From Zunongwangia pacifica (GTDB lineage: Bacteria; Bacteroidota; Bacteroidia; Flavobacteriales; Flavobacteriaceae), in assembly GCF_023499215.1 (NCBI RefSeq), contig NZ_JAKHSK010000032.1, forward strand, positions 1 through 56,697: a stretch of DNA of 56,697 nt. Direction: 5' to 3'. Both the position numbers and the translations under genes were made by a program. The notes under the pieces were generated by a model. It saw only the letters and a list, made by a program, of their open reading frames with translations. It did not search any database and was not told where the DNA came from. Shown here in pieces: positions 3,536-51,731 of the stretch. Each line of letters begins with the position of its first letter. Position 1 is the first letter of the stretch.

Positions 3536-4369
3536 ATGCTGAATATTGGCGAAAATCATCGTTTAATTATTGATCGTGAAACCGAACCTGGTTTATTTCT
3601 TAAAAATGCTGAAGGAGATGAGGTGTTATTGCCTAATAAATACATTCCTGAAAATTTTAAATTAGAAGATGAAATCGAGGTTTTTGTGTATCTGGATCAC
3701 TCAGAGCGTCCGGTGGCGACAACTTTAGAGCCTTATGTAAAACTAGATGAATTCGCCTTTTTAGAATGTGTAGAGACCACTGATTTTGGTGCTTTTTTAG
3801 ATTGGGGATTAGAGAAGCATTTATTCGTTCCGTTTAAGGAACAGGTTTATCCCATGCAAAAAGGGCATCATTATTTAATTTTTTGCTATTTAGATGAAGA
3901 CACTAACCGATTGGTCGCTTCAAGTAAAGTACATGCATTTTTAGATAATTCAGACTTAACCATAAAACCATTTGAAGAAGTCGATCTTATTATAAGTAAT
4001 AAAACAGATCTTGGCTATAATGTGATCATTAATGAAATTCATCTTGGTTTGGTATATAATGATGATGTTTTTCAGCCTATAGAAATTGGCGATCGTATTA
4101 AAGGATTTATAAAAAAGACCAGAAAAGACGGGAAAATCGATGTTACTTTACAGCGTCCCGGATATCGAAGTATCGAGCCTAATGCCCAGGCGATTTTGGA
4201 TGAATTACAAAAACAAAACGGTTTTTTAAATATTACTGACAAGTCTTCACCAGATCAAATAAAAGCCGTACTTAAAATGAGCAAAAAAAGCTTTAAGCGC
4301 GCTGCAGGAAATCTTTATAAACAGCGCCAAATTGATATAAAAGAAGACGGTATTTATTTAAAACAGTAA
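3536..4369 (+). CDS. cvfB: CvfB-family S1-like RNA-binding protein
   Basis: A 277-residue soluble protein. It resembles the CvfB/YitL family, with several S1-like beta-barrel repeats in the first ~215 residues. S1-like features are TTDFGAFLDWGLEKHLFVP (about residues 81-99), a shorter repeat around LGYNVIINEIHLGLVY, and RKDGKIDVTLQRPGY. The C-terminal ~60 residues fit the winged-helix domain of the family. The family binds RNA and affects virulence gene expression in Staphylococcus; its role in flavobacteria is not established. It is preceded by a -7 box close to the ATG. Confidence 0.88.
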   Translation: MLNIGENHRLIIDRETEPGLFLKNAEGDEVLLPNKYIPENFKLEDEIEVFVYLDHSERPVATTLEPYVKLDEFAFLECVETTDFGAFLDWGLEKHLFVPFKEQVYPMQKGHHYLIFCYLDEDTNRLVASSKVHAFLDNSDLTIKPFEEVDLIISNKTDLGYNVIINEIHLGLVYNDDVFQPIEIGDRIKGFIKKTRKDGKIDVTLQRPGYRSIEPNAQAILDELQKQNGFLNITDKSSPDQIKAVLKMSKKSFKRAAGNLYKQRQIDIKEDGIYLKQ

Positions 4370-38989: not shown

Positions 38990-39358
38990 AAGTTGATCCC
39001 CCAACACCTGAAGGGAATTTTTTTTAATCGCTTTCAGAAACCCTTAGGTTTACGAATTCTTATATAATAGAATGTCATGAGCTAATTGTACTTTTAGTGC
39101 AAGGTTCACAGGAGATCCCCCTAACCCCCGACGGGGGAATATTTTTTAAGTCGCTTTCAGAAACCCTTAGGTTCACGAATTCTTATATAGTAGAATGTCA
39201 TGAGCTATTTGTACTTTTAGTGCAAGGTTCACAGGAGATCCCCCTAACCCCCGACGGGGGAATATTTTTTAAGTCGCTTTCAGAAACCCTTTGGTTCACG
39301 AATTCTTATACAATAGCATGCCATGAGCTATTTGTACTTTTAGTGCAGGATTCACAGG
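38990..39358. repeat. Three degenerate 123-bp CRISPR-derived units
   Basis: Units 38990-39112, 39113-39235 and 39236-39358 recur at exactly 123 bp. In units 2 and 3, GCTTTCAGAA (repeat positions 11-20) is followed by a 46-bp insert and then the last 27 nt of the repeat. The segment in place of the spacer is the same in both and holds the GC-rich palindrome CCCCCGACGGGGG. 123 equals the normal 77-bp period plus 46. Unit 3 ends in the exact array repeat sequence, whereas units 1 and 2 differ (GCAAGGTTCACAGG). Confidence 0.8.
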
Positions 39359-42300
39359 TTTGACTATCGTTAAGATTGAACTTGCGTTGTTGTGAATTGC
39401 TTTCAGAATTGTACTTTTAGTGCAGGATTCACAGGGGACAGCGTCAAAATGTTAGAAATGATAATGTTGTGAATTGCTTTCAGAATTGTACTTTTAGTGC
39501 AGGATTCACAGGATTATACCATTTAACACCTACTCCTTTGATGTTGTGAATTGCTTTCAGAATTGTACTTTTAGTGCAGGATTCACAGGTCGATCTAAAG
39601 AATGGATTGTAGCTTATCAGTTGTGAATTGCTTTCAGAATTGTACTTTTAGTGCAGGATTCACAGGTTTTGCACCTTCTAATATTACAGATGATGAGTTG
39701 TGAATTGCTTTCAGAATTGTACTTTTAGTGCAGGATTCACAGGTTATTTTTGTAAGTCATGCAGGCGGTTCAGGTTGTGAATTGCTTTCAGAATTGTACT
39801 TTTAGTGCAGGATTCACAGGAATAAAGTTTGATGATCCTTAGCAAAGTGGGTTGTGAATTGCTTTCAGAATTGTACTTTTAGTGCAGGATTCACAGGTGG
39901 CGTCTTCTACAATATCCTTAAGCGCATGTTGTGAATTGCTTTCAGAATTGTACTTTTAGTGCAGGATTCACAGGTAGGAAAAGCACCTGTAGTAGCCCAC
40001 TTAGTTGTGAATTGCTTTCAGAATTGTACTTTTAGTGCAGGATTCACAGGGTTTTGGGCAGAAACTAACGCACTGTTTATGTTGTGAATTGCTTTCAGAA
40101 TTGTACTTTTAGTGCAGGATTCACAGGGTTAACTGCAAAGGTGTTGTTGCTGTTGCTGTTGTGAATTGCTTTCAGAATTGTACTTTTAGTGCAGGATTCA
40201 CAGGTTGTAATACTTTTTGGTACGGTCAATTGTCGTTGTGAATTGCTTTCAGAATTGTACTTTTAGTGCAGGATTCACAGGCGCACATCTATAACTTTCA
40301 GGAACACCTGAGTTGTGAATTGCTTTCAGAATTGTACTTTTAGTGCAGGATTCACAGGTCATCTGTTACACTCCCTGTACCCGTGCTTGTTGTGAATTGC
40401 TTTCAGAATTGTACTTTTAGTGCAGGATTCACAGGCAAGGTGAAATATAAATCGCTGACGTTTTGGTTGTGAATTGCTTTCAGAATTGTACTTTTAGTGC
40501 AGGATTCACAGGATTTCTCATCGTTACCTGGTGCCGAGAATAGTTGTGAATTGCTTTCAGAATTGTACTTTTAGTGCAGGATTCACAGGATGTTCATCAG
40601 TTGTATTTCCCTGGTCTTGTTGTGAATTGCTTTCAGAATTGTACTTTTAGTGCAGGATTCACAGGGTACTTTATTTACCAAGTCAATCCCTGCCTGTTGT
40701 GAATTGCTTTCAGAATTGTACTTTTAGTGCAGGATTCACAGGTCTTCTAAGCCAGATGAAAGAACTGAGATAGTTGTGAATTGCTTTCAGAATTGTACTT
40801 TTAGTGCAGGATTCACAGGAAAGGTTGCGATTAAGGTTCCGTTCCAGTTGTTGTGAATTGCTTTCAGAATTGTACTTTTAGTGCAGGATTCACAGGAAGG
40901 AATGTCGTCGTATTCATCTGCAGACGGTTGTGAATTGCTTTCAGAATTGTACTTTTAGTGCAGGATTCACAGGCTTCTATGTAAGCAAGATTAAACGATG
41001 CTAGTTGTGAATTGCTTTCAGAATTGTACTTTTAGTGCAGGATTCACAGGAAGTGTTGTCTATGTCATTTCCACTAACAAGTTGTGAATTGCTTTCAGAA
41101 TTGTACTTTTAGTGCAGGATTCACAGGAGCTTCTTTTGGAAATTCTTTATTCAGATAGTTGTGAATTGCTTTCAGAATTGTACTTTTAGTGCAGGATTCA
41201 CAGGAATGCGAAGGCTGTAATCTGGTTTGAGGATGTTGTGAATTGCTTTCAGAATTGTACTTTTAGTGCAGGATTCACAGGCGTAAACAGATGAATTACC
41301 TCCTGACCTTCGTTGTGAATTGCTTTCAGAATTGTACTTTTAGTGCAGGATTCACAGGCTCTTACATCGCAATTCAAATATCTTCCGTGTTGTGAATTGC
41401 TTTCAGAATTGTACTTTTAGTGCAGGATTCACAGGGATAAAAGTAAATACGCTTTAGTTCAATTAGTTGTGAATTGCTTTCAGAATTGTACTTTTAGTGC
41501 AGGATTCACAGGTAGTTTTAGGATTGATTCTTTGTCAATTTGTTGTGAATTGCTTTCAGAATTGTACTTTTAGTGCAGGATTCACAGGACATTAACGCTA
41601 ACATTTTCGTAATAAATAGTTGTGAATTGCTTTCAGAATTGTACTTTTAGTGCAGGATTCACAGGGTAAACGTAAAAATTACCTGTTAACGGAAGGTTGT
41701 GAATTGCTTTCAGAATTGTACTTTTAGTGCAGGATTCACAGGAGTACAGCTCCGTAATGTCTCCATAAATCAGTTGTGAATTGCTTTCAGAATTGTACTT
41801 TTAGTGCAGGATTCACAGGATAGGAGGTTTGTTTAATTAAAAATAAATAGTTGTGAATTGCTTTCAGAATTGTACTTTTAGTGCAGGATTCACAGGTTTC
41901 TGTAAAAGTTCAGCACACACCTATAGTTGTGAATTGCTTTCAGAATTGTACTTTTAGTGCAGGATTCACAGGAAAGATAACGACCCCGCATTTGATTTAT
42001 TTGTTGTGAATTGCTTTCAGAATTGTACTTTTAGTGCAGGATTCACAGGACTAGGAGGCTTAACCCTGTATTAACTCATGTTGTGAATTGCTTTCAGAAT
42101 TGTACTTTTAGTGCAGGATTCACAGGCCTTCCTTGACATTTCAATAGAGTACACATGTTGTGAATTGCTTTCAGAATTGTACTTTTAGTGCAGGATTCAC
42201 AGGGAGGAGAAAGCATTTATGTTGACGGTACCAGTTGTGAATTGCTTTCAGAATTGTACTTTTAGTGCAGGATTCACAGGGATGAAAGTGAGAGAGTCCT

Positions 42301-42818
42301 ACAAGAGTTAGTTGTGAATTGCTTTCAGAATTGTACTTTTAGTGCAGGATTCACAGGTGTTGTCTTGTAGCATCTTCAGTGATGCCTGTTGTGAATTGCT
42401 TTCAGAATTGTACTTTTAGTGCAGGATTCACAGGTATCCAATCTATCATAAAACATTGCTTGGTGTTGTGAATTGCTTTCAGAATTGTACTTTTAGTGCA
42501 GGATTCACAGGATTGCTTCTCCTCTGACCTCAAATAATATTGTTGTGAATTGCTTTCAGAATTGTACTTTTAGTGCAGGATTCACAGGGTTTACCACAGT
42601 AGTATGAAACTCTTAGATGTTGTGAATTGCTTTCAGAATTGTACTTTTAGTGCAGGATTCACAGGAGCCTGTTGTGTAGGTATTACCATCCCACTGTTGT
42701 GAATTGCTTTCAGAATTGTACTTTTAGTGCAGGATTCACAGGAATAACAATAAAGATAATGCTTAATTAGAGTTGTGAATTGCTTTCAGAATTGTACTTT
42801 TAGTGCAGGATTCACAGG
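39359..42818 (+). CRISPR. Type II-C CRISPR array, 45 repeats of 47 bp
   Basis: The 47-bp repeat starts GTTGTGAATTGCTTTCAG and ends AGTGCAGGATTCACAGG. I count 45 copies from 39389 to 42818, all identical as far as I can see. There are 44 internal spacers of 30 bp (five are 29 bp), so the period is 76-77 bp. One more spacer (39359-39388) lies between unit 3 of the degenerate block and the first full repeat. GTTGT at the left end of the repeat and pairing to the tracrRNA antirepeat place transcription on the plus strand, convergent with the cas genes. No spacer targets could be searched. Confidence 0.97.
39390..39419 (+). promoter_or_regulatory. Promoter-like sequence inside each CRISPR repeat (first copy shown)
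   Basis: Within the repeat, TTG (positions 2-4), 19 bp, then TACTTTTA (positions 24-31) is one base short of the full -33/-7 consensus TAnnTTTG. Transcription would start near repeat position 36-39 and give last-repeat-bases + spacer + next repeat. The same layout is known in Neisseria type II-C arrays, with a different promoter type. The match recurs in all 45 repeats. Confidence 0.55.
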
Positions 42819-42948: not shown

Positions 42949-43314
<366 letters not shown>

Positions 43315-44238: not shown

Positions 44239-45135
44239 CTATCTAAACTCGGGATATAGTATTTTTCGGCTACTTCCATAAAAACAATCATATAAACTAT
44301 TAGTGGTTCGGCTCATCGCATTCATTAACGGACTTTGTTTGCCGTCAATTTCAACATCTAAGGCAGGAATCCTCAATAATTCTGTTTTAAGATTGGTGGT
44401 GAGTTCTTCAAGATTACAGCCACTTTCTACGATATCATACACTAAGGCATCAACATAGGGGCGGTAAGGTTCCATAACATCATCAGCTAAAGCAAATGGG
44501 TTGTATTTGTTATGATGAAAAATGCCCACCGATGGAAGCATACCACTACTCACGATGGCTCTTGCCGCAATAGCTCTTAAAATCGCATATCCATAATTTA
44601 ATAGATTATTAGGAGGAATACCTTTTTGGTTACGACTAAAGCCTTCGATATCAAACAGGTTCTGAAAATAATAGGCGGCAGCAATGGCTTCGTGGTTTTG
44701 GGTATCGCCACTCTTTACTTCATTACTCCAGCGTTCCAATTTTAAACTGTATTTGCCTAAGAGTTTTAAATGTGCCGCCTGATTGCTGATTTTTGCAGTT
44801 ACCGTCTGTTGCCAAAGATTCTTCTTTAACGGGATACTGGCATCAAGTTGATGCCGGTAACGCACCGTTTGCTCGGTATGGCCTACTAAGGGTTGTAGCA
44901 AAGAACAGGGGAGGTGTTGTTTATCGCAGGTGATGACCGCCGTTTTATTTTGCACCAATTTCATTAGCAGTCCATTTGTAAGGGTAATTTGTGGGTTTTC
45001 CAACACGACAAAGCCTAAATCTTCAATGGGGATGGTTTTTTCTTCCTTTTCCTCTTCCGGAAAATTAACCACCAATTGCTCATTTTTAGTACTTAAATAG
45101 GTTGGACTGCCGAAGAAAAGGGTTCGCTTAATCAT
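44239..45135 (-). CDS. cas1: Cas1, CRISPR integrase
   Basis: The metal-dependent integrase that inserts new spacers with Cas2. The 298 residues fit type II Cas1. The catalytic residues are E149 (NHEAIAAAYYF), H207 (GIFHHNKYNPFALADD) and the acidic D218/E222 area, as in the family. The start codon follows the cas9 stop by 6 bp, so cas9 and cas1 are one operon. The next cas gene, cas2, is about 940 bp away, after repeats and a GIY-YIG gene. Confidence 0.96.
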   Translation of the reverse strand: MIKRTLFFGSPTYLSTKNEQLVVNFPEEEKEEKTIPIEDLGFVVLENPQITLTNGLLMKLVQNKTAVITCDKQHLPCSLLQPLVGHTEQTVRYRHQLDASIPLKKNLWQQTVTAKISNQAAHLKLLGKYSLKLERWSNEVKSGDTQNHEAIAAAYYFQNLFDIEGFSRNQKGIPPNNLLNYGYAILRAIAARAIVSSGMLPSVGIFHHNKYNPFALADDVMEPYRPYVDALVYDIVESGCNLEELTTNLKTELLRIPALDVEIDGKQSPLMNAMSRTTNSLYDCFYGSSRKILYPEFR

Positions 45136-45141
45136 TACTTT

Positions 45142-48100
45142 TTAATATTCTCCTATTTGTACAATTCTGCCAATATGATCTATTCTAACTTTACACAAAT
45201 TTCTTAGCCATTCGGTTGCTTGGAAATGTCTATACGTAAAATCCAAATTATTGGTGACCTCTGTTTCTAGGTGATGCCTAAACATATAGTTTTTTGTTGC
45301 AATTTTTTGAACCCTAAATAAGTTAGGGCTTATAATAGCAGCATTTTTTTCATCCAATAGGTCAATCTCATGCGGATTAAAATTTTCTGAAGGAAAAACA
45401 AACATTTCATTTTGCTTCATCATAAACAAAAATTTCCACCCTTTTGGATGCTGTTTTTTTATAATTGGCTGGTCTTGATTTTTACGTATAACAGCCTCAT
45501 AAAAGGAAACTACTTCTTCTTGAAGATTACCAATCTCATCTTGATAAATGGCTACATGATGATTATTACCCGTACTTACATAATCAGTAGGAATTTCTTT
45601 TCCGTTATCGTCCAAAATTATATTTCCTAAATGATCTTTGGCTTGATGTAAAGGTTCTGCATTGCTAACTCCTGAAATTGTAGCTCTTTTGATGGTTATG
45701 CCTTTAGATTGATTTAACCAAATAGGATTTTTATCTAAATCTGAAAAAGCTGTTTTAAAGTCACCATTGTATTCTTCTAAACGCTTTTTCATTACCTCTT
45801 TAATGCCTTTATCAATAATTTTATCTAGATGTTTTTGAGTTTTAAAATTATCTGGATTAATATCTTTACGAATCGTGAAGATCTCTTCAAAAATCTTCAC
45901 TTCTCTAAGAGGACTTCCATTAACTTGGATAGGATCACTTTTAAGGGTTTTATTACTAAAGGCTATTTTTTCGTTATTATCGTATTTTTTAAGGTGGTGC
46001 AATACAGCTTCTTGCTCTTTAAAATTAATTATTAAACCTGCTTGCTTCTTAGAAAACCTACTATTTATTTTTACAGGTTTTTCTAGTGGTTGTTTTGACT
46101 TTCCATATATGGTCTCTTTGTGCAATTGACCTCTGGGAGTTTTGGCTTTTTGGTAATTAAATCCTCCTTCTTTTTTAGTTTGGTTTATATTTTTAGTTAC
46201 AACCTTATTTTTATTTTTAAAACTTACTAGTATAGCTTCAATTTGTTCTTTTGCGTTTTCACGAAAACTACTCATAGGTGCTTTGAAAACACGTTTTCCT
46301 TTTGAATTTACCTCTGTAATAAGATTTTCAATATTTTTTATAATAGGATGATTGTCCTGAGTAATATCCTTTCTGGCATTGAGGTTATTTATATATTGAA
46401 TATGATTATGTGTGGTGAAAGCAACTGCTAATGCATCCATAGCGTGATGCCTGTGGTCATTACGCTTTGTCCAATCTTTTATTACTTCGTGCTTAAATAT
46501 CTCTTCCGTTCCCTTATCAAGCCGTTCTTCATATTTCGTTAACCCCAGTGCTTTATATTTGGGCAGGTTCAACTCTTTCATTACATTGATTAAATCCCAG
46601 TCACTTCTTAACTTATCGGTAATACTTCCAGAAGTAGCTAAAACTTCATTTGGGAATACTTCATAAAGCATCCTTTTCGCTTTGCGGGCTATATATTGGC
46701 TATTTCTTAGATCACGCTCTATAAATCCATCAGGAATATCTTTGAGAGACATTAGTAATTTATTTCTCTTGCCTTTTGAAATATGGTTATCCTTATTCAA
46801 AGTTTCCACACGTTCTTTGTATGCTTCTACATTTGACTGATAATCTTGTGTGATAAAGTCTAAAGCAGTACGGTTTGCTTTTTTTAGGTTAACATTCCTA
46901 AAGGATAATGTTTTATTTGAAAATGAATCATCAAAAAGCAATGCTTTTGGAATGATGTGCTCTATATCTATTTCGCTTGAAAATATTTTATCTGGGCTTA
47001 TATATTTGTCGGTAAATATGTCTTTATACCCTCTAGATTCTAGTTCCTGCCATAGTCGATAACGTACTACATCTGACTTCGTAGGATTTGGAATTCCAAA
47101 TTTTTGAGTTATGATCTTTTTAATTTCCTCATTTCTTCTTGTACCATCTGCAATACCTTTAGTCATTTCAGCTCTTTCTTTTGCTGATTTTTTCAATTCT
47201 CTAGCTAATTCTATCCTAACGCCATCTGGTTTTCCATAGTTGTCAATAACTTGATTTACGACGTTCACCATTTGGTTTAAAATCTTCTCGACAACAGGAT
47301 TGCGAAGACTATTCTTTTTAAGTAAATCGAGTTTAGCTTTTGGCTCAAATTTTTCTAAATCTTCTGCTGTCAAACTTTTAGAATGATTATAACCGGCTAA
47401 CCTACAAGCTTCAGAATATAGATGACCATCCTCTAAATAAGGGAGAATTTTTTTAATGGCCTTAGCAGATAAGTTTCCGTAGTCCGACATCAGAGATAAA
47501 TTAGCCAGCATTTTTGCATATTCTGGATTGAAACCAAACTTTAGGTGAAGCTTTTTCTTTAATGAAACACTAGAATTTCCGTATATTAACTTATCCTGTT
47601 CGGAAATTTTAAAATCTTCTTCAGCTGAATATAATAAATGCCACAATTCATAGCTGGATTGGTTGGTAAGTTGTTTTTTGTAAGCATCAAATTCTAAAAT
47701 AGAAGCATTTATTCCTATTTCGGGAAAAGTAGCTTTTAATTCCTTTCTAATTTTTTTTGCGTTTGATTTATTCCAATCAATTCCATAGCCTTCAAAATCT
47801 GATATTTTTTGATAGATATTAAAAAGTGCCGCATTCGTTCTATTTCCTTCAATCTTTTCAAAATTGCATTTCCAATTACTTAGCTTACCAATTTTGAATT
47901 GAGATCTTAAGATTTTAAGGAGATCATTTGGGTTTAAGTCTCCCCGTAGGTTCAGTTCCTCAAAAAGTTCTTTTCGTATTTCTTGTTCTACTTCTTTAAT
48001 TTCAATCTTTTCATCGGTTTCACTATTTGTAAATACTAAATGATTTAGATTCTGCCATATCTTGAATTCTTGAAATAGGGGTGAAGATTTAGGGATAACA

Positions 48101-49308
48101 CGTCTCCCTACGGTTCTTGTTTTAGTTTTTCCCGTTTCTTTATCAAAATATTCTTGTTCCCAACTTTCAAACTGGCAGAAGCTTATCAGTGATTTTTGAG
48201 ATTTTATTTTGCGTTGATAGAAAATAACAATATCTCTTATTTCTTGTTTTAATTCATCTGTTAAATTGGCATAGAAATTTGATTGGGTTTTCCAAATTTG
48301 TTCAAATTCATCTAAATAGTCCTGACGATAGAAAACCTGATTTTTGAGTGAGGTGTGCGGATTTTTTGCTATTTGTTTATAAAGGAATTCACCTACAGTT
48401 TCTTTATTAAGGTATAGCTTTTTACTTCTATCTGAAATACCCCCTAAATAACCACTAGATTGATTTATATCATTATTGATTTCTTGTAAAACAATGGCTA
48501 GTTGTTCTAAATCTAACTTCTCCGACAATCCTTTTACCCTCCAATGATAGTTTTCTATAGTTTTTTCTCTTCCTTTTATTATACGCTTGATTCCCTTTAT
48601 ATTAAAAGGTTTTTGGCAAATCGCCCAAGTTTGAGATTTATTTTTACCATCTAATTCTTTAAATAATTCATCCGTTAAAATTTCAAGGTAAAATGTTTTT
48701 TGATTGTTCCAAATCTTATTGAATTCTTGTTTTAAATCTGAGCGATAAAAATCCGGGATATATTTCCTATCATTTTCAAGCAATTCAAGAGCATATTGTC
48801 CTGGTGTAATATCTTGCTCGTAGAGTTCTTTTGCGATTGCCATTCCATCAATTGCTTGCCCTTCTTCATCATTACTAGCCTTTCTACTACTTTTATACCC
48901 CCTTTTTTTATTGATGGCTAAAAGAACTTTTGCAAAATCTTCTAAATCAATTCGCTCTCTTGCAGCCTTAGCTCTTAAAGAGAGTGTTTGGTGTGTTGTG
49001 CCTTTTCCTATTTCGGTAAGTGGCGCCTCTTTAGTAATAATGTGATTCTCTATTAGAATTTCAATAAGATTTTCTCTTCTTAATTTATAGCGTTGCAAAT
49101 TACGGCGAGCTCCTCGTTTTAATGTCCGGTCTGCATTGGTTGATAATGGGCGACCTTTTTCAAAATTGGTTTTTTCATCAATTGTTAAGGGATTAACGCG
49201 CACCCCAAGTTTTATGATTTGTGAGGTTTCTGTTTCATTCTCTGCTTCGTTTACCAAAGCCCAGCCAATCGAGTTGGTGCCTAAATCTAGTCCTAATATT
49301 TTTTTCAT
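45142..49308 (-). CDS. cas9: Cas9, type II-C RNA-guided DNA endonuclease
   Basis: The effector that cuts DNA with crRNA and tracrRNA. I start at ATG 49308 (MKKILGLDLGTNSIGWAL, 1388 residues); an in-frame ATG at 49350 adds 14 unusual residues. All catalytic positions are present: RuvC-I D8, RuvC-II E700 (RIELAREL), HNH H784 (DIEHIIP) with Asn near 807, and RuvC-III H955 and D958 (HHAMDAL). An Arg-rich bridge helix (RRNLQRYKLRRENL) lies at about residues 60-75. The length is that of the large II-C Cas9 group of Bacteroidota. There is no csn2 or cas4, which supports II-C. PAM unknown. cas1 follows after 6 bp. Confidence 0.97.
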   Translation of the reverse strand: MKKILGLDLGTNSIGWALVNEAENETETSQIIKLGVRVNPLTIDEKTNFEKGRPLSTNADRTLKRGARRNLQRYKLRRENLIEILIENHIITKEAPLTEIGKGTTHQTLSLRAKAARERIDLEDFAKVLLAINKKRGYKSSRKASNDEEGQAIDGMAIAKELYEQDITPGQYALELLENDRKYIPDFYRSDLKQEFNKIWNNQKTFYLEILTDELFKELDGKNKSQTWAICQKPFNIKGIKRIIKGREKTIENYHWRVKGLSEKLDLEQLAIVLQEINNDINQSSGYLGGISDRSKKLYLNKETVGEFLYKQIAKNPHTSLKNQVFYRQDYLDEFEQIWKTQSNFYANLTDELKQEIRDIVIFYQRKIKSQKSLISFCQFESWEQEYFDKETGKTKTRTVGRRVIPKSSPLFQEFKIWQNLNHLVFTNSETDEKIEIKEVEQEIRKELFEELNLRGDLNPNDLLKILRSQFKIGKLSNWKCNFEKIEGNRTNAALFNIYQKISDFEGYGIDWNKSNAKKIRKELKATFPEIGINASILEFDAYKKQLTNQSSYELWHLLYSAEEDFKISEQDKLIYGNSSVSLKKKLHLKFGFNPEYAKMLANLSLMSDYGNLSAKAIKKILPYLEDGHLYSEACRLAGYNHSKSLTAEDLEKFEPKAKLDLLKKNSLRNPVVEKILNQMVNVVNQVIDNYGKPDGVRIELARELKKSAKERAEMTKGIADGTRRNEEIKKIITQKFGIPNPTKSDVVRYRLWQELESRGYKDIFTDKYISPDKIFSSEIDIEHIIPKALLFDDSFSNKTLSFRNVNLKKANRTALDFITQDYQSNVEAYKERVETLNKDNHISKGKRNKLLMSLKDIPDGFIERDLRNSQYIARKAKRMLYEVFPNEVLATSGSITDKLRSDWDLINVMKELNLPKYKALGLTKYEERLDKGTEEIFKHEVIKDWTKRNDHRHHAMDALAVAFTTHNHIQYINNLNARKDITQDNHPIIKNIENLITEVNSKGKRVFKAPMSSFRENAKEQIEAILVSFKNKNKVVTKNINQTKKEGGFNYQKAKTPRGQLHKETIYGKSKQPLEKPVKINSRFSKKQAGLIINFKEQEAVLHHLKKYDNNEKIAFSNKTLKSDPIQVNGSPLREVKIFEEIFTIRKDINPDNFKTQKHLDKIIDKGIKEVMKKRLEEYNGDFKTAFSDLDKNPIWLNQSKGITIKRATISGVSNAEPLHQAKDHLGNIILDDNGKEIPTDYVSTGNNHHVAIYQDEIGNLQEEVVSFYEAVIRKNQDQPIIKKQHPKGWKFLFMMKQNEMFVFPSENFNPHEIDLLDEKNAAIISPNLFRVQKIATKNYMFRHHLETEVTNNLDFTYRHFQATEWLRNLCKVRIDHIGRIVQIGEY

Positions 49309-49354
49309 ACTTAGATATAATGAAAATACTTTATTGTTGTAAATATACATATTA

Positions 49355-49366
49355 TAATTCTACATA
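49355..49366 (-). promoter_or_regulatory. Candidate Cas9 self-target in the cas9 promoter
   Basis: Minus-strand TATGTAGAATTA is identical to the 12 bases directly before the solitary degenerate repeat at 49518. If that RNA guides Cas9, these bases are its seed target. The next bases on the non-target strand (PAM position) are TAATATGT. The site covers the predicted -7 box and start of cas9 transcription. Confidence 0.6.
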
Positions 49367-49395
49367 AATAGAAAATGTTTATTATCTTTGTCAAA
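49363..49395 (-). promoter_or_regulatory. Predicted cas9 promoter
   Basis: Minus-strand TTTG (49395-49392), 21 bp, TATTTATG (49370-49363), one mismatch from the -7 consensus. The transcript would start near 49356 and have a leader of about 48 nt to the ATG at 49308. The -33 area is the small palindrome CTTTG-T-CAAAG. Confidence 0.5.
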
Positions 49396-49481
49396 GAAAT
49401 TTTCATATTTGAATTGACGAATTCATTTTGTTAAGGTCCAAACTTGACTTGTTAGTCTCCCAAGGATTAATAATGAAAATT

Positions 49482-49568
49482 TTTTTTGCATCTAATACTA
49501 TTTTATATGTAGAATTAGTTGTGAATTGTTTTCAGTTTAAACCACCTCATTAACAGTGAGGTGGTTTT
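49482..49568 (+). ncRNA. Putative crRNA-like regulatory RNA (scaRNA-like) with degenerate repeat
   Basis: GTTGTGAATTGTTTTCAG (49518-49535) equals repeat positions 1-18 except for C to T at position 12. That change still allows a G-U pair with the tracrRNA antirepeat. The 30 bases before it (49488-49517) sit where a spacer would be. An 11-bp hairpin (49539-49549 with 49557-49567) followed by TTTT can end the RNA. The last 12 nt of the guide match the cas9 promoter at 49355-49366. The start of the RNA is uncertain; a weak TTG-N21-TAATAATG at 49444-49475 is the best promoter seen. Existence of the RNA is inferred. Confidence 0.6.
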
Positions 49569-49658
49569 CCATTCTCTTAATTTTTTAACATTTTAAAGTT
49601 AACAATAAAATTTTTAGTTGGATTACGGTTTCCCATAAATGCCTTTAGAAAAGTTTTG

Positions 49659-49666
49659 TATATTTG
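49659..49666 (+). promoter_or_regulatory. -7 box TATATTTG of tracrRNA
   Basis: TATATTTG is a perfect TAnnTTTG box 7 bp before the predicted tracrRNA start. A -33 TTG at the usual distance is not seen. Confidence 0.65.
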
Positions 49667-49672
49667 TATTAT

Positions 49673-49754
49673 AATTCTGAAAGCAATTCACAATAAGGAT
49701 TATTCCGTTGTGAAAACATTCAAGGTGGCAGATTCATTTTTGTCACCTTTTTTT
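49673..49754 (+). ncRNA. tracrRNA
   Basis: The antirepeat ATTCTGAAAGCAATTCACAA (49674-49693) is the exact complement of repeat positions 2-21, with pairing extendable by about 4 bp through a G-U. It is followed by a nexus-like AAGGATTATTCCGTTGTG, then a 9-bp terminator hairpin (49722-49730 with 49741-49749) and a T run. Size is about 82 nt. The gene is divergent from cas9. Order and elements match known tracrRNAs; the 5' end is inferred from the -7 box. Confidence 0.9.
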
Positions 49755-49771
49755 AATTCATCGAGGACTTT

Positions 49772-49787
49772 CTATACATATGTATAG
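49772..49787. repeat. 16-bp perfect palindrome downstream of tracrRNA
   Basis: CTATACATATGTATAG is fully self-complementary. It lies between the tracrRNA terminator and the nucleotidyltransferase gene and may be an operator for the latter; no factor is known. Confidence 0.4.
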
Positions 49788-49900
49788 GTGAATGTTATAC
49801 TTAAACTATGGCTAGCAGCCAACCGGAAACAGTGCCTATATAATCTCCCCAATTTTCCCTATTTTCGTTACCACGCTAACGATGAGCAAACCTGAGAAAA

Positions 49901-50677
49901 ATGGAAATGGAGCAAAAAATTAGTCAGTATTTAGAAAGGGTTGAGCAAGAGCATCAAGTGAACATCCTGTTGGCCTGTGAAACAGGATCCCGCGCTTGGG
50001 GATTTCCTTCGCCCGATAGTGATTTTGATATCCGAATCATTTACATCCACTCTAAAGACTGGTATTTATCGCTGAGCGAGAAAAAGGACAGCCTGGAATT
50101 GATGTTCGAGAATAACGAAATTGATATCACCGGCTGGGATTTGCGCAAGTCGTTGCGGCTGCTGCAAAAATCCAATCCGCCGTTATTGGAGCGCATCCAA
50201 TCGCCCATTATTTATAAAGCCGATACGCATTTTGTAAAAGAAATTCAGCAATTGGCCGGTAGTCAGTATTCCAGAATTGCCACCATTCACCATTACCTGA
50301 GTATGGCGAAAAAGTTCCTGGATGAGCTGGAAAGTGCCGAGACCTACAAACTCAAAAAATTCTTTTACGCCTTACGTTCGGCGGTTGCCTGTAAATGGAT
50401 TGTTGAAAAAGAAGAGATGCCGCCCATTGAATTCAAAAAAATGCGGGAAGGGTTGGCTATAGAAGAAAAGCTCTTAAAACGGATCGAAGAACTCATCGAT
50501 TTAAAAGCCACCCAAAGTGAAACCTATTTGCACCAGGGAGAAGCGCCACTCTTCGCGTTGATGCATTCCTGTGTAGCGCTGGCCGAAGAGCAGCGAACGT
50601 CCTTACCCGCTTCCAACGGCAGTTTGAAAGATTTGGATGCCTTTTTTCTAAAAATGGTACATCGGTATGACGATTGA
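49901..50677 (+). CDS. Nucleotidyltransferase of PF10127 (RlaP-like) type, first of a pair
   Basis: A 258-residue protein of the DNA-polymerase-beta-like nucleotidyltransferase fold. The active-site pattern GSRAWGFPSPDSDFDIR (about residues 28-44) supplies the Gly-Ser and the Asp-x-Asp metal ligands. Members of PF10127/RlaP are often near RNA-repair genes (RNA ligase, RtcB), but none is found here. The substrate is unknown. The next gene starts 11 bp before its stop, so the two are translationally coupled. It has somewhat higher GC than the CRISPR genes. Confidence 0.8.
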   Translation: MEMEQKISQYLERVEQEHQVNILLACETGSRAWGFPSPDSDFDIRIIYIHSKDWYLSLSEKKDSLELMFENNEIDITGWDLRKSLRLLQKSNPPLLERIQSPIIYKADTHFVKEIQQLAGSQYSRIATIHHYLSMAKKFLDELESAETYKLKKFFYALRSAVACKWIVEKEEMPPIEFKKMREGLAIEEKLLKRIEELIDLKATQSETYLHQGEAPLFALMHSCVALAEEQRTSLPASNGSLKDLDAFFLKMVHRYDD

Positions 50678-51731
50678 AGACTTAAAACAACAAAAGCTCA
50701 TTATTTTAGAATGCATTAGCGAAAGTAAGGCTTATGGGTTAGATACACCAGAATCCGATACCGATATTAAAGGCGTGTTTATCTTGCCCAAAAAAGATTT
50801 CTATGGATTAAATTATATTCCGCAAGTCAGCAATGCTACGAATGATATCGTCTATTATGAATTGGGGCGTTACCTGGAATTACTTTCGGTGAATAATCCT
50901 AATATTTTAGAATTGCTCAATACGCCGCCATCGGCGGTACTTTACAAGCATCCGCTGTTAGATCGTATCGATTCCCGACGAATCTTATCAAAACTCTGTA
51001 AAAACACCTTTGGGAAGTTTGCCATTTCCCAAATAAAGAAAGCCAAAGGTTTAAAGAAAAAGATCGTGAATCCGGTAGAAAAAGAATGCAAAAGCGTACT
51101 ATCTTTCTGTTATGTAAATCACGAACAGGGAGCGATTCCGTTGCCAGACTATCTCGCCTTAAAAAACTGGAAACAGGAAGATTGCGGACTCATCAACATT
51201 CCGCATATGAAAAATATGTACGGCTTATTTTATGGTGCGCAGTTAGGCTATAAAGGCATTATGCAGCACGAGCAATCCAACGACGTGAGTTTAAGTTCCA
51301 TTCCCAAAGAAGAAAAGCAGCAGGCCTTGTTGTATTTTAATAAAGACGGTTATTCCAGTTACTGCAAGGAATATAAAGAGTATTGGAATTGGGTAAAACA
51401 CCGAAACGAAGCCCGCTACCAAAATACCCAAAACCACGGAAAGAACTACGACGCGAAAAATATGATGCATACCTTCCGACTCTTAGAAATGGCGCTGGAA
51501 ATTGCCAGAGAAAAACAAATCAACGTACAACGTCCTAACCGCGAGTTTTTACTGGAAATTAAAAGCGGAAAATTCGCTTACGATACGCTTTTGGCCCAGG
51601 CAAATAAATTGCAGGCTCAACTGGAAGAAGCTTTTCAACAGACCGACTTACCCGAGCATCCCGATCTTCACTACATCAATCAATTAGCCTATGAGTTGCG
51701 GGAAGGCTTGTATCGGGAAGGGTTTTATTAA
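50667..51731 (+). CDS. Nucleotidyltransferase of PF10127 (RlaP-like) type, second of a pair
   Basis: A 354-residue paralogue of the preceding protein. The active-site pattern is SESKAYGLDTPESDTDIKG (about residues 17-35), with the first Gly-Ser replaced by Glu-Ser but the Asp-x-Asp kept. The C-terminal half is helical, with KNMMHTFRLLEMALEIA. The 3' end of this gene, coding DLPEHPDLHYINQLAYEL, is repeated in diverged form at 53614-53718. Function unknown; substrate likely a nucleic acid or protein, by family. Confidence 0.8.
   Translation: MTIEDLKQQKLIILECISESKAYGLDTPESDTDIKGVFILPKKDFYGLNYIPQVSNATNDIVYYELGRYLELLSVNNPNILELLNTPPSAVLYKHPLLDRIDSRRILSKLCKNTFGKFAISQIKKAKGLKKKIVNPVEKECKSVLSFCYVNHEQGAIPLPDYLALKNWKQEDCGLINIPHMKNMYGLFYGAQLGYKGIMQHEQSNDVSLSSIPKEEKQQALLYFNKDGYSSYCKEYKEYWNWVKHRNEARYQNTQNHGKNYDAKNMMHTFRLLEMALEIAREKQINVQRPNREFLLEIKSGKFAYDTLLAQANKLQAQLEEAFQQTDLPEHPDLHYINQLAYELREGLYREGFY

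Follow-up and report, generated by a model that had tools for sequence, protein, structure and literature searches.

A putative scaRNA-like guide aimed at the cas9 promoter in type II-C-like loci of Bacteroidota

A small RNA gene is predicted beside cas9 of Zunongwangia pacifica; its short guide matches the cas9 promoter, a strong indication that Cas9 targets this promoter and thereby keeps its own level down. The locus is very likely a type II-C scaRNA-like autorepressor of cas9, as read from its sequence. Seen directly are the match of a guide to the cas9 promoter, its strand, its anchoring at a lone repeat, the complementarity of that repeat to the tracrRNA, the joint change of guide and target between lineages, a purine pair in the target flank, and joint presence or absence with the promoter. 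Judged from the intervals compared, the recurrence of the arrangement with co-varying guides, present or absent together with the targeted promoter in close sisters, goes beyond the original prediction. The window is the whole stretch of 56,697 nt analysed (contig NZ_JAKHSK010000032.1, assembly GCF_023499215.1).

The locus and its element in Zunongwangia pacifica

Type II-C-like by gene content, with cas9, cas1, cas2 and an array. The cas9 gene (45142..49308, minus strand) encodes 1388 aa with HNH and RuvC III domains; its start codon ends at 49308. The cas1 (44239..45135) and cas2 (42949..43296) genes lie on the same strand. The CRISPR array (39389..42818, plus strand) has a 47-nt repeat, a spacing of mostly 77 and 45 matches to the repeat 18-mer, spanning 39389-42789. 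No ORF of what we take to be csn2 size occurs between cas2 and cas9, where ORFs of at least 80 aa are cas2, cas1, cas9 and three of 82–102 aa. The tracrRNA (49677..49756, plus strand) consists of anti-repeat (49677-49694), nexus and terminator (from 49722). Rfam gives no match at gathering scores in the whole window, and three sub-threshold matches only in 49300-49820.

Three 123-nt tandem units with the 3' part of the array repeat in common stand at the array edge (39019-39387). Next to the tracrRNA, at 49901-51731, two neighbouring genes contain RlaP domains (RNA repair pathway polymerase beta family, Pfam). A TTACGGAAAACC-like box is present about 50 nt before the tracrRNA, within 49620-49666, and recurs by eye in the tracrRNA promoter region of many loci. 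In Kordia-like loci this box and TTTTCCGT by the -7 box form an inverted repeat. From its sequence and recurrence the box looks like an operator of the ancestral tracrRNA-cas9 region.

The lone degenerate repeat (49518..49535, plus strand) lies between cas9 and tracrRNA and is cut down to the tracrRNA-pairing part. As originally predicted, it agrees with the array repeat at 17/18 positions and keeps its pairing: one base differs, and 18/18 positions pair with the anti-repeat when G-U is counted, 16 of them Watson-Crick. Even with 3 mismatches in 18 allowed, no second repeat was found before the guide, which is thus not a spacer between two repeats, as in a mini-array. The guide seed of 12 nt, TATGTAGAATTA, directly precedes the lone repeat (49506..49517, plus strand). 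The same 12 nt stand on the cas9 coding strand at 49355..49366 (minus strand), 46 nt from the start codon, with the 3' flank TAATAT. These are the only two copies in the window, for which shuffles of the window expect 0.01. The whole 5.1-Mb genome has no further copy by exact 12-mer search.

A scaRNA might have other genes as its main targets, the cas9 match being secondary. The scaRNA of Francisella novicida represses lipoprotein genes (excerpt of PMC8730458), and that of Neisseria meningitidis is reported to act on efeO mRNA (excerpt of PMC13431127). Such a role is judged very unlikely here: an exact search finds the 12-mer nowhere else in the genome, and 13/13 elements described below match the cas9 region itself.

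The target overlaps a cas9 -7-like box, TATTTATG (49363..49370, minus strand), with 5/6 fixed bases and TTTG at a spacing of 21; the predicted overlap with the -7 box was thereby borne out, under a -7/-33 consensus that is our assumption. Toward the guide RNA, a full TAnnTTTG box, TATCTTTG (49383..49390, plus strand), with a poor -33 part, is a possible divergent promoter. An RNA of 49482-49568 had been proposed. A hairpin with a short T tract (49537..49572, plus strand) is the likely 3' end; the start may be near 49398 rather than 49482, both being candidate positions. The T tract is short (TTTTCC) and the hairpin is not listed by the terminator scan, so read-through from the element into the tracrRNA is possible. 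A leader hairpin with the loop GTCCAAA occupies 49430..49448 (plus strand) in the centroid fold. The fold of 49398-49572 has z = -6.2. In it the guide is predicted to pair back onto leader and repeat, which would hinder loading and counts against the proposed function.

From the sequence we infer transcription, loading, binding without cutting and repression. The truncated repeat of the putative scaRNA-like RNA would pair with the normal tracrRNA and load Cas9. The 12 matching bases at the seed end would be enough to bind the cas9 promoter and too few to cut it. The complex, bound over the cas9 -7 box and start region, would block initiation and exert negative feedback on cas9. It may limit the guide RNA too, since the target lies just upstream of the likely divergent -7 box. 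Being identical to the coding strand, the guide pairs with the template strand and cannot pair with cas9 mRNA; with antisense pairing excluded, DNA targeting, as described for F. novicida, is the sensible reading.

Recurrence and guide-promoter matching in relatives

Relatives were drawn from several searches. A scan of genome contigs for cas9 relatives gave 54 loci, and a same-genus search found cas9 in 2/6 genomes. Exact tracrRNA-pattern searches covered 397 genomes of the family (51 hits), 395 of the phylum (24), 396 of the class (48), 11 of a single genus (5) and 150 of another genus (11); these took in loci with the exact pattern only, and their genome sets overlap in part. Pooled, they amount to 149 distinct cas9-tracrRNA intervals of Bacteroidota. 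Left out were 12 loci with no cas9 start recognised within 1500 nt (6 + 2 + 4) and one family hit near a contig end (G390 contig 45).

Loss of the match in relatives with a degenerate repeat had been named as evidence against the prediction. Plus-strand lone repeats of at least 14/18, tracrRNA nexus excluded, number 14 in the 149 intervals, and 12 of them keep a guide matching over 7–13 nt. The two others are one in L115, which has a matching element and this second, unmatched lone repeat, and one in L031 (= L131). The latter is a 14/18 repeat-like sequence in the first 20 nt before cas9, abutting the start codon with no room for a guide; it is possibly the footprint of a lost element. A 13th element, in L067, has a repeat of 12/18 fused to a tracrRNA copy and was included partly for its match and fused form. 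The elements thus come from the window and about a dozen scattered relatives. In 34 intervals added later, the sole lone repeat of at least 14/18 is that of L185. Complementarity between repeat and tracrRNA is kept at 12–18/18 with G-U in 12 loci.

L158 is a candidate only: its repeat is 13/18, its match is 7 nt, one mismatch and 4 more, and it has no clear terminator. A second lone repeat of L042 near the array (reverse complement 3641-3672), whose preceding 11 AT-rich nt match the guide RNA leader region at a site with no RR in its flank, was not counted. No element was found by eye in the long intervals L129, L112 and L040 or the shorter L021, L100, L099 and L017, nor by scan in L168 and L183. 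Lone repeats elsewhere in 47 long loci, tracrRNA anti-repeats aside, are mostly array-edge or flank repeats.

Other repeat arrangements were observed. In L026 (reverse complement 1450-1980), array-edge lone repeats are duplicated with guides, two of them followed by terminator-like hairpins; their cas9 match is at most 5 nt. In L047 the tracrRNA gene is in tandem duplicate before cas9. The Riemerella phage vB_RanS_CRP19 (OR089151.1; L145, 1440-1710) carries a small array and then a terminator-like hairpin; the repeats are like those of Riemerella (L012), and two spacers are identical.

Each of the 13 elements has a junction-anchored match of 7–13 nt to the region upstream of its own cas9, always on the coding strand of that gene. 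The match is 13 nt in L185; 12 nt in the window, L034, L086, L067 and L141; 11 nt in L085; 10 nt in L055; 9 nt in L018; 8 nt in L024, L038 and L115; and 7 nt in L042, so that 9/13 elements reach at least 9 nt. On the opposite strand the same guides reach 3–5 nt. Swapped guide-promoter pairs reach at most 8 nt (2/154 pairs), and comparison of the guides with the upstream regions of 137 other intervals gives 9 nt in 1/1781 cases. In a permutation over 12 loci, 0/200,000 arrangements equal the observed sum (122; mean 58.7); L086 was left out, as its guide is common to L034 and L086. The first test comprised 11 elements, and L141 and L185, found afterwards, fit with 12 and 13 nt. The 7 nt of L042 and the 8 nt of L024, L038 and L115, taken as a first run, are within lengths that swapped pairs sometimes reach. 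When the anchor is slid within L018, L024, L038, L042, L086 and L115, the observed length is reached 2–9 times of 102–288 positions; in some loci these matches perhaps stem from a second match.

A chance match in AT-rich DNA next to a decaying repeat has two facts in its favour, promoters of about 77% A+T and the 7–8 nt of the weakest loci. Its probability is nevertheless practically negligible in view of the permutations, the 154 swaps with at most 8 nt and the long matches of the later loci.

Guide and target sequences differ between lineages, and each guide matches its own promoter; the co-variation proposed as a check was found. L042 (to which L133 is identical) and L085 belong to one genus, Kordia, and have different guides, each matching its own promoter 41–44 nt from the start codon. 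Between L024 and L038 a single seed position is changed, in the guide and in the target alike. The lone repeat of L085 carries AAATG of its own anti-repeat, and that of L055 carries GATTTGC of its own. The original prediction was right about the match, and very probably about the autoregulation principle.

Alternatively, a transcription factor could use the two 12-mer copies as operator sites or as a DNA dyad, and the lone repeat would be an array relic next to one of them. Inverted copies 50–257 nt apart near divergent promoters could indeed serve a looping repressor. Very little weight is given to this, as in 13 loci the match stops precisely where the repeat begins, the matching sequence varies between lineages, the repeats are complementary to their own tracrRNAs and one relative carries a fusion to a copy of the tracrRNA.

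Some guides have a second match. In L018, L024, L038 and L115 the match of 8–9 nt is followed, after a 1-nt length difference, by a match of 11–12 nt (p 0.0003–0.0007 each, against shuffled guides). The other eight loci fall short of that level (L086, 0.050; the window, 0.079; the rest >0.1). The offset bulge would presumably allow binding without cutting.

In the 3' flank of the target, positions +2 and +3 are purines in 12/12 loci and position +6 is T in 11/12. L185 was not among these; its flank, ATAAAC, breaks both rules, which gives 12/13 for the purine pair and 11/13 for T. L055 has two target sites, of which one was used for the count; the other also has the purine pair. The chance of the purine pair is about 1e-4, corrected for the choice of positions and classes. 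The target flanked by NRRNNT has a single match in the genome, a result that is partly circular because NRRNNT was deduced from these same targets. No convincing protospacer for the array was found in the phage collection (five records). PAMs of type II-C are diverse (excerpt of PMC8482600) and that of Fp2Cas9 is given as SNAAAG (excerpt of PMC12609912); the flank is for this reason a hypothetical PAM.

Promoters, RNA structure and the block in close sisters

Core promoter boxes adjoin most targets. In the window, L034, L086 and L085 the target shares bases with a cas9 -7-like box; in L018, L038 and L141 it overlaps a cas9 -33 position, and in L024, L042, L055 and L115 it lies at most 6 nt from one. 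L067 has no cas9 core box at the target (12 loci scanned, L185 excluded, with the same assumed consensus). A full TAnnTTTG box toward the guide RNA stands 13–29 nt beyond the target in 9/12 loci, often with a poor -33 part. From the positions of the cas9 boxes and the divergent TAnnTTTG boxes, the target probably touches both divergent promoters.

Partial self-targeting could instead bring Cas9 to the promoter and stimulate transcription or spacer acquisition, and the sequence says nothing on the sign of regulation. This activating or priming role is scarcely credible, as in 11/12 loci the target lies on or next to a core promoter box, where occlusion is the simple outcome, and the known relatives repress.

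The putative guide RNA of the autorepressor has recurrent structure. A hairpin with the GTCCAAA loop, by which it was picked, occurs 72–81 nt before the repeat in 6/12 loci. Its stem covaries: 86% of cells are paired, against 53% in shuffles (0/500), among six sequences of which two are close. By eye, a similar hairpin in L185 contains TCCAAA. At the 3' end, a 41-nt stretch that starts inside the repeat reaches a folding energy of -12 kcal/mol or lower in 7 of the first 11 loci. The fold is weak in L042, L085, L115 and L067; in L141 and L185 a hairpin and T run are seen by eye. Fold-back of guide and repeat onto the leader is mixed overall. Of 300 shuffled leaders, those as stable number 0 in L034 and L086, 3 in L055, 4 in the window (L001), 6 in L141, 12 in L115, 23 in L042, 37 in L085, 47 in L038, 68 in L018, 112 in L024 and 215 in L067.

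L067 (G162) combines guide, repeat, loop, anti-repeat and nexus in one predicted RNA at about 300-450 of the interval, beside a separate tracrRNA. The fused guide has a 12-nt match. By this arrangement it is a natural single guide, as predicted from sequence, at a II-C-like locus.

The element is part of a block that is present or absent in close sisters. Positions 265-383 of the window's interval align with 1-119 of the same-genus L003 (G004) at 116/119 identity, and in L003 nothing separates this stretch from the start codon of cas9. Missing from L003 is 49309..49572, that is, the cas9 promoter with the target, the guide RNA leader, the guide, the lone repeat and the hairpin. The cas9 genes of sisters with and without the block are 97% identical. 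In six close sister pairs the element-free interval, starting 0–8 nt from the start codon, aligns only to the tracrRNA-proximal 101–119 nt of the locus with the element. Besides L001/L003, these are L038/L014 (101/107 identical), L034/L027 (88/99), L042/L131 (93/108), L085/L134 (88/105) and L141/L116 (89/108). The pairs L001/L005, L034/L015, L141/L138, L141/L143, L042/L132, L086/L043 and L018/L036 point in the same direction with weaker scores. Alignment is short or weak in L086/L007 and L024/L028; L115/L069, L055/L069 and L055/L110 align elsewhere and are uninformative. As the element-free sisters align only with the tracrRNA-proximal part, the block that comes or goes includes, on these alignments, both cas9 promoter and target. 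A weak alignment also exists between the cas9-proximal part of L141 and L143, which is element-free (score 60 vs 126), so that the block of L141 could be a local duplication.

Horizontal spread of the element is possible. On the Cas9 tree, built from N-terminal parts by a quick method with long branches flagged and L185 not included, it takes 12 changes to account for the element, of which starred branches force 10. This is no fewer than with shuffled labels, and the number is still 12 with the identical L133 labelled. L034 and L086 have 152/173 leader bases in common and Cas9 N-termini 73% identical. L141 has the hairpin too, and its Cas9 N-terminus is 37% like that of the window.

The block may be a transferable cassette of about 240–340 nt, a tentative reading that leans somewhat to the doubtful side. 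It would comprise a replacement cas9 promoter and a divergent structured guide RNA with its target, and would slot in with the ancestral tracrRNA promoter region on one side and the start codon of cas9 on the other. Repression would act on both divergent promoters, and some guides would offset seed against distal match to prevent cutting. Guide and target would be inherited together, as both are inside the block, and the GTCCAAA hairpin is conserved in half of the loci.

Known systems and meaning

Mini-arrays and crRNA-like elements (CreR) reportedly repress cas promoters in type I and V-A systems, in work attributed to Shmakov, 2023. Like them, the present elements have lone repeats and a partial spacer match to a cas promoter. 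They differ in having one repeat, not two, and in belonging to Cas9 with tracrRNA at a type II-C-like locus.

The scaRNA of F. novicida (type II-B) resembles the putative RNA of the window in being a separate small RNA with a diverged tracrRNA-pairing repeat and a short seed match by the start site. It reportedly needs 9–15 bp on the template strand, beside a PAM and close to the start site (excerpt of PMC13431127). Its targets are lipoprotein genes, whereas here the target is cas9 itself, at a II-C-like locus. Unlike that scaRNA, the element described here and the cas9 promoter are in close sisters either both there or both missing, and some guides have a second match after an offset.

Streptococcus tracr-L (type II-A) directs a short guide against the cas operon promoter, with autorepression by Cas9 (excerpt of PMC8730458). 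The guide of the window likewise matches the cas operon promoter. In tracr-L, guide and tracrRNA are in one RNA, whereas in the window a probably separate RNA has its own repeat; the fused, tracr-L-like form occurs only in L067, beside a normal tracrRNA.

Predictions of type II scaRNAs include small RNAs with a repeat at the II-C loci of Neisseria and Pasteurella; a II-A scaRNA that immediately precedes cas9 in Mycoplasma gallisepticum is predicted too, as is, for Listeria, an RNA resembling an sgRNA (excerpt of PMC6199352). The predicted II-C scaRNAs differ in lying upstream of the array, and no cas9 promoter match is given for them in that excerpt. For the scaRNA of N. meningitidis, the excerpt of PMC13431127 reports no complex with cas9 DNA, which also sets it apart. 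In the literature on Cas9 self-regulation, of which coverage was limited and the sources partial, no II-C guide against cas9 was found.

If the reading is true, guide-based self-control of Cas9 extends to type II-C-like loci of Bacteroidota, and both known solutions, the separate RNA and the fused single guide, occur within one group. Sisters with and without the block, and guide-target pairs changed together, are natural experiments. From seed lengths, offset guides and the common flank, rules open to testing may be drawn on how Cas9 binds but does not cut and on the PAM of these enzymes.
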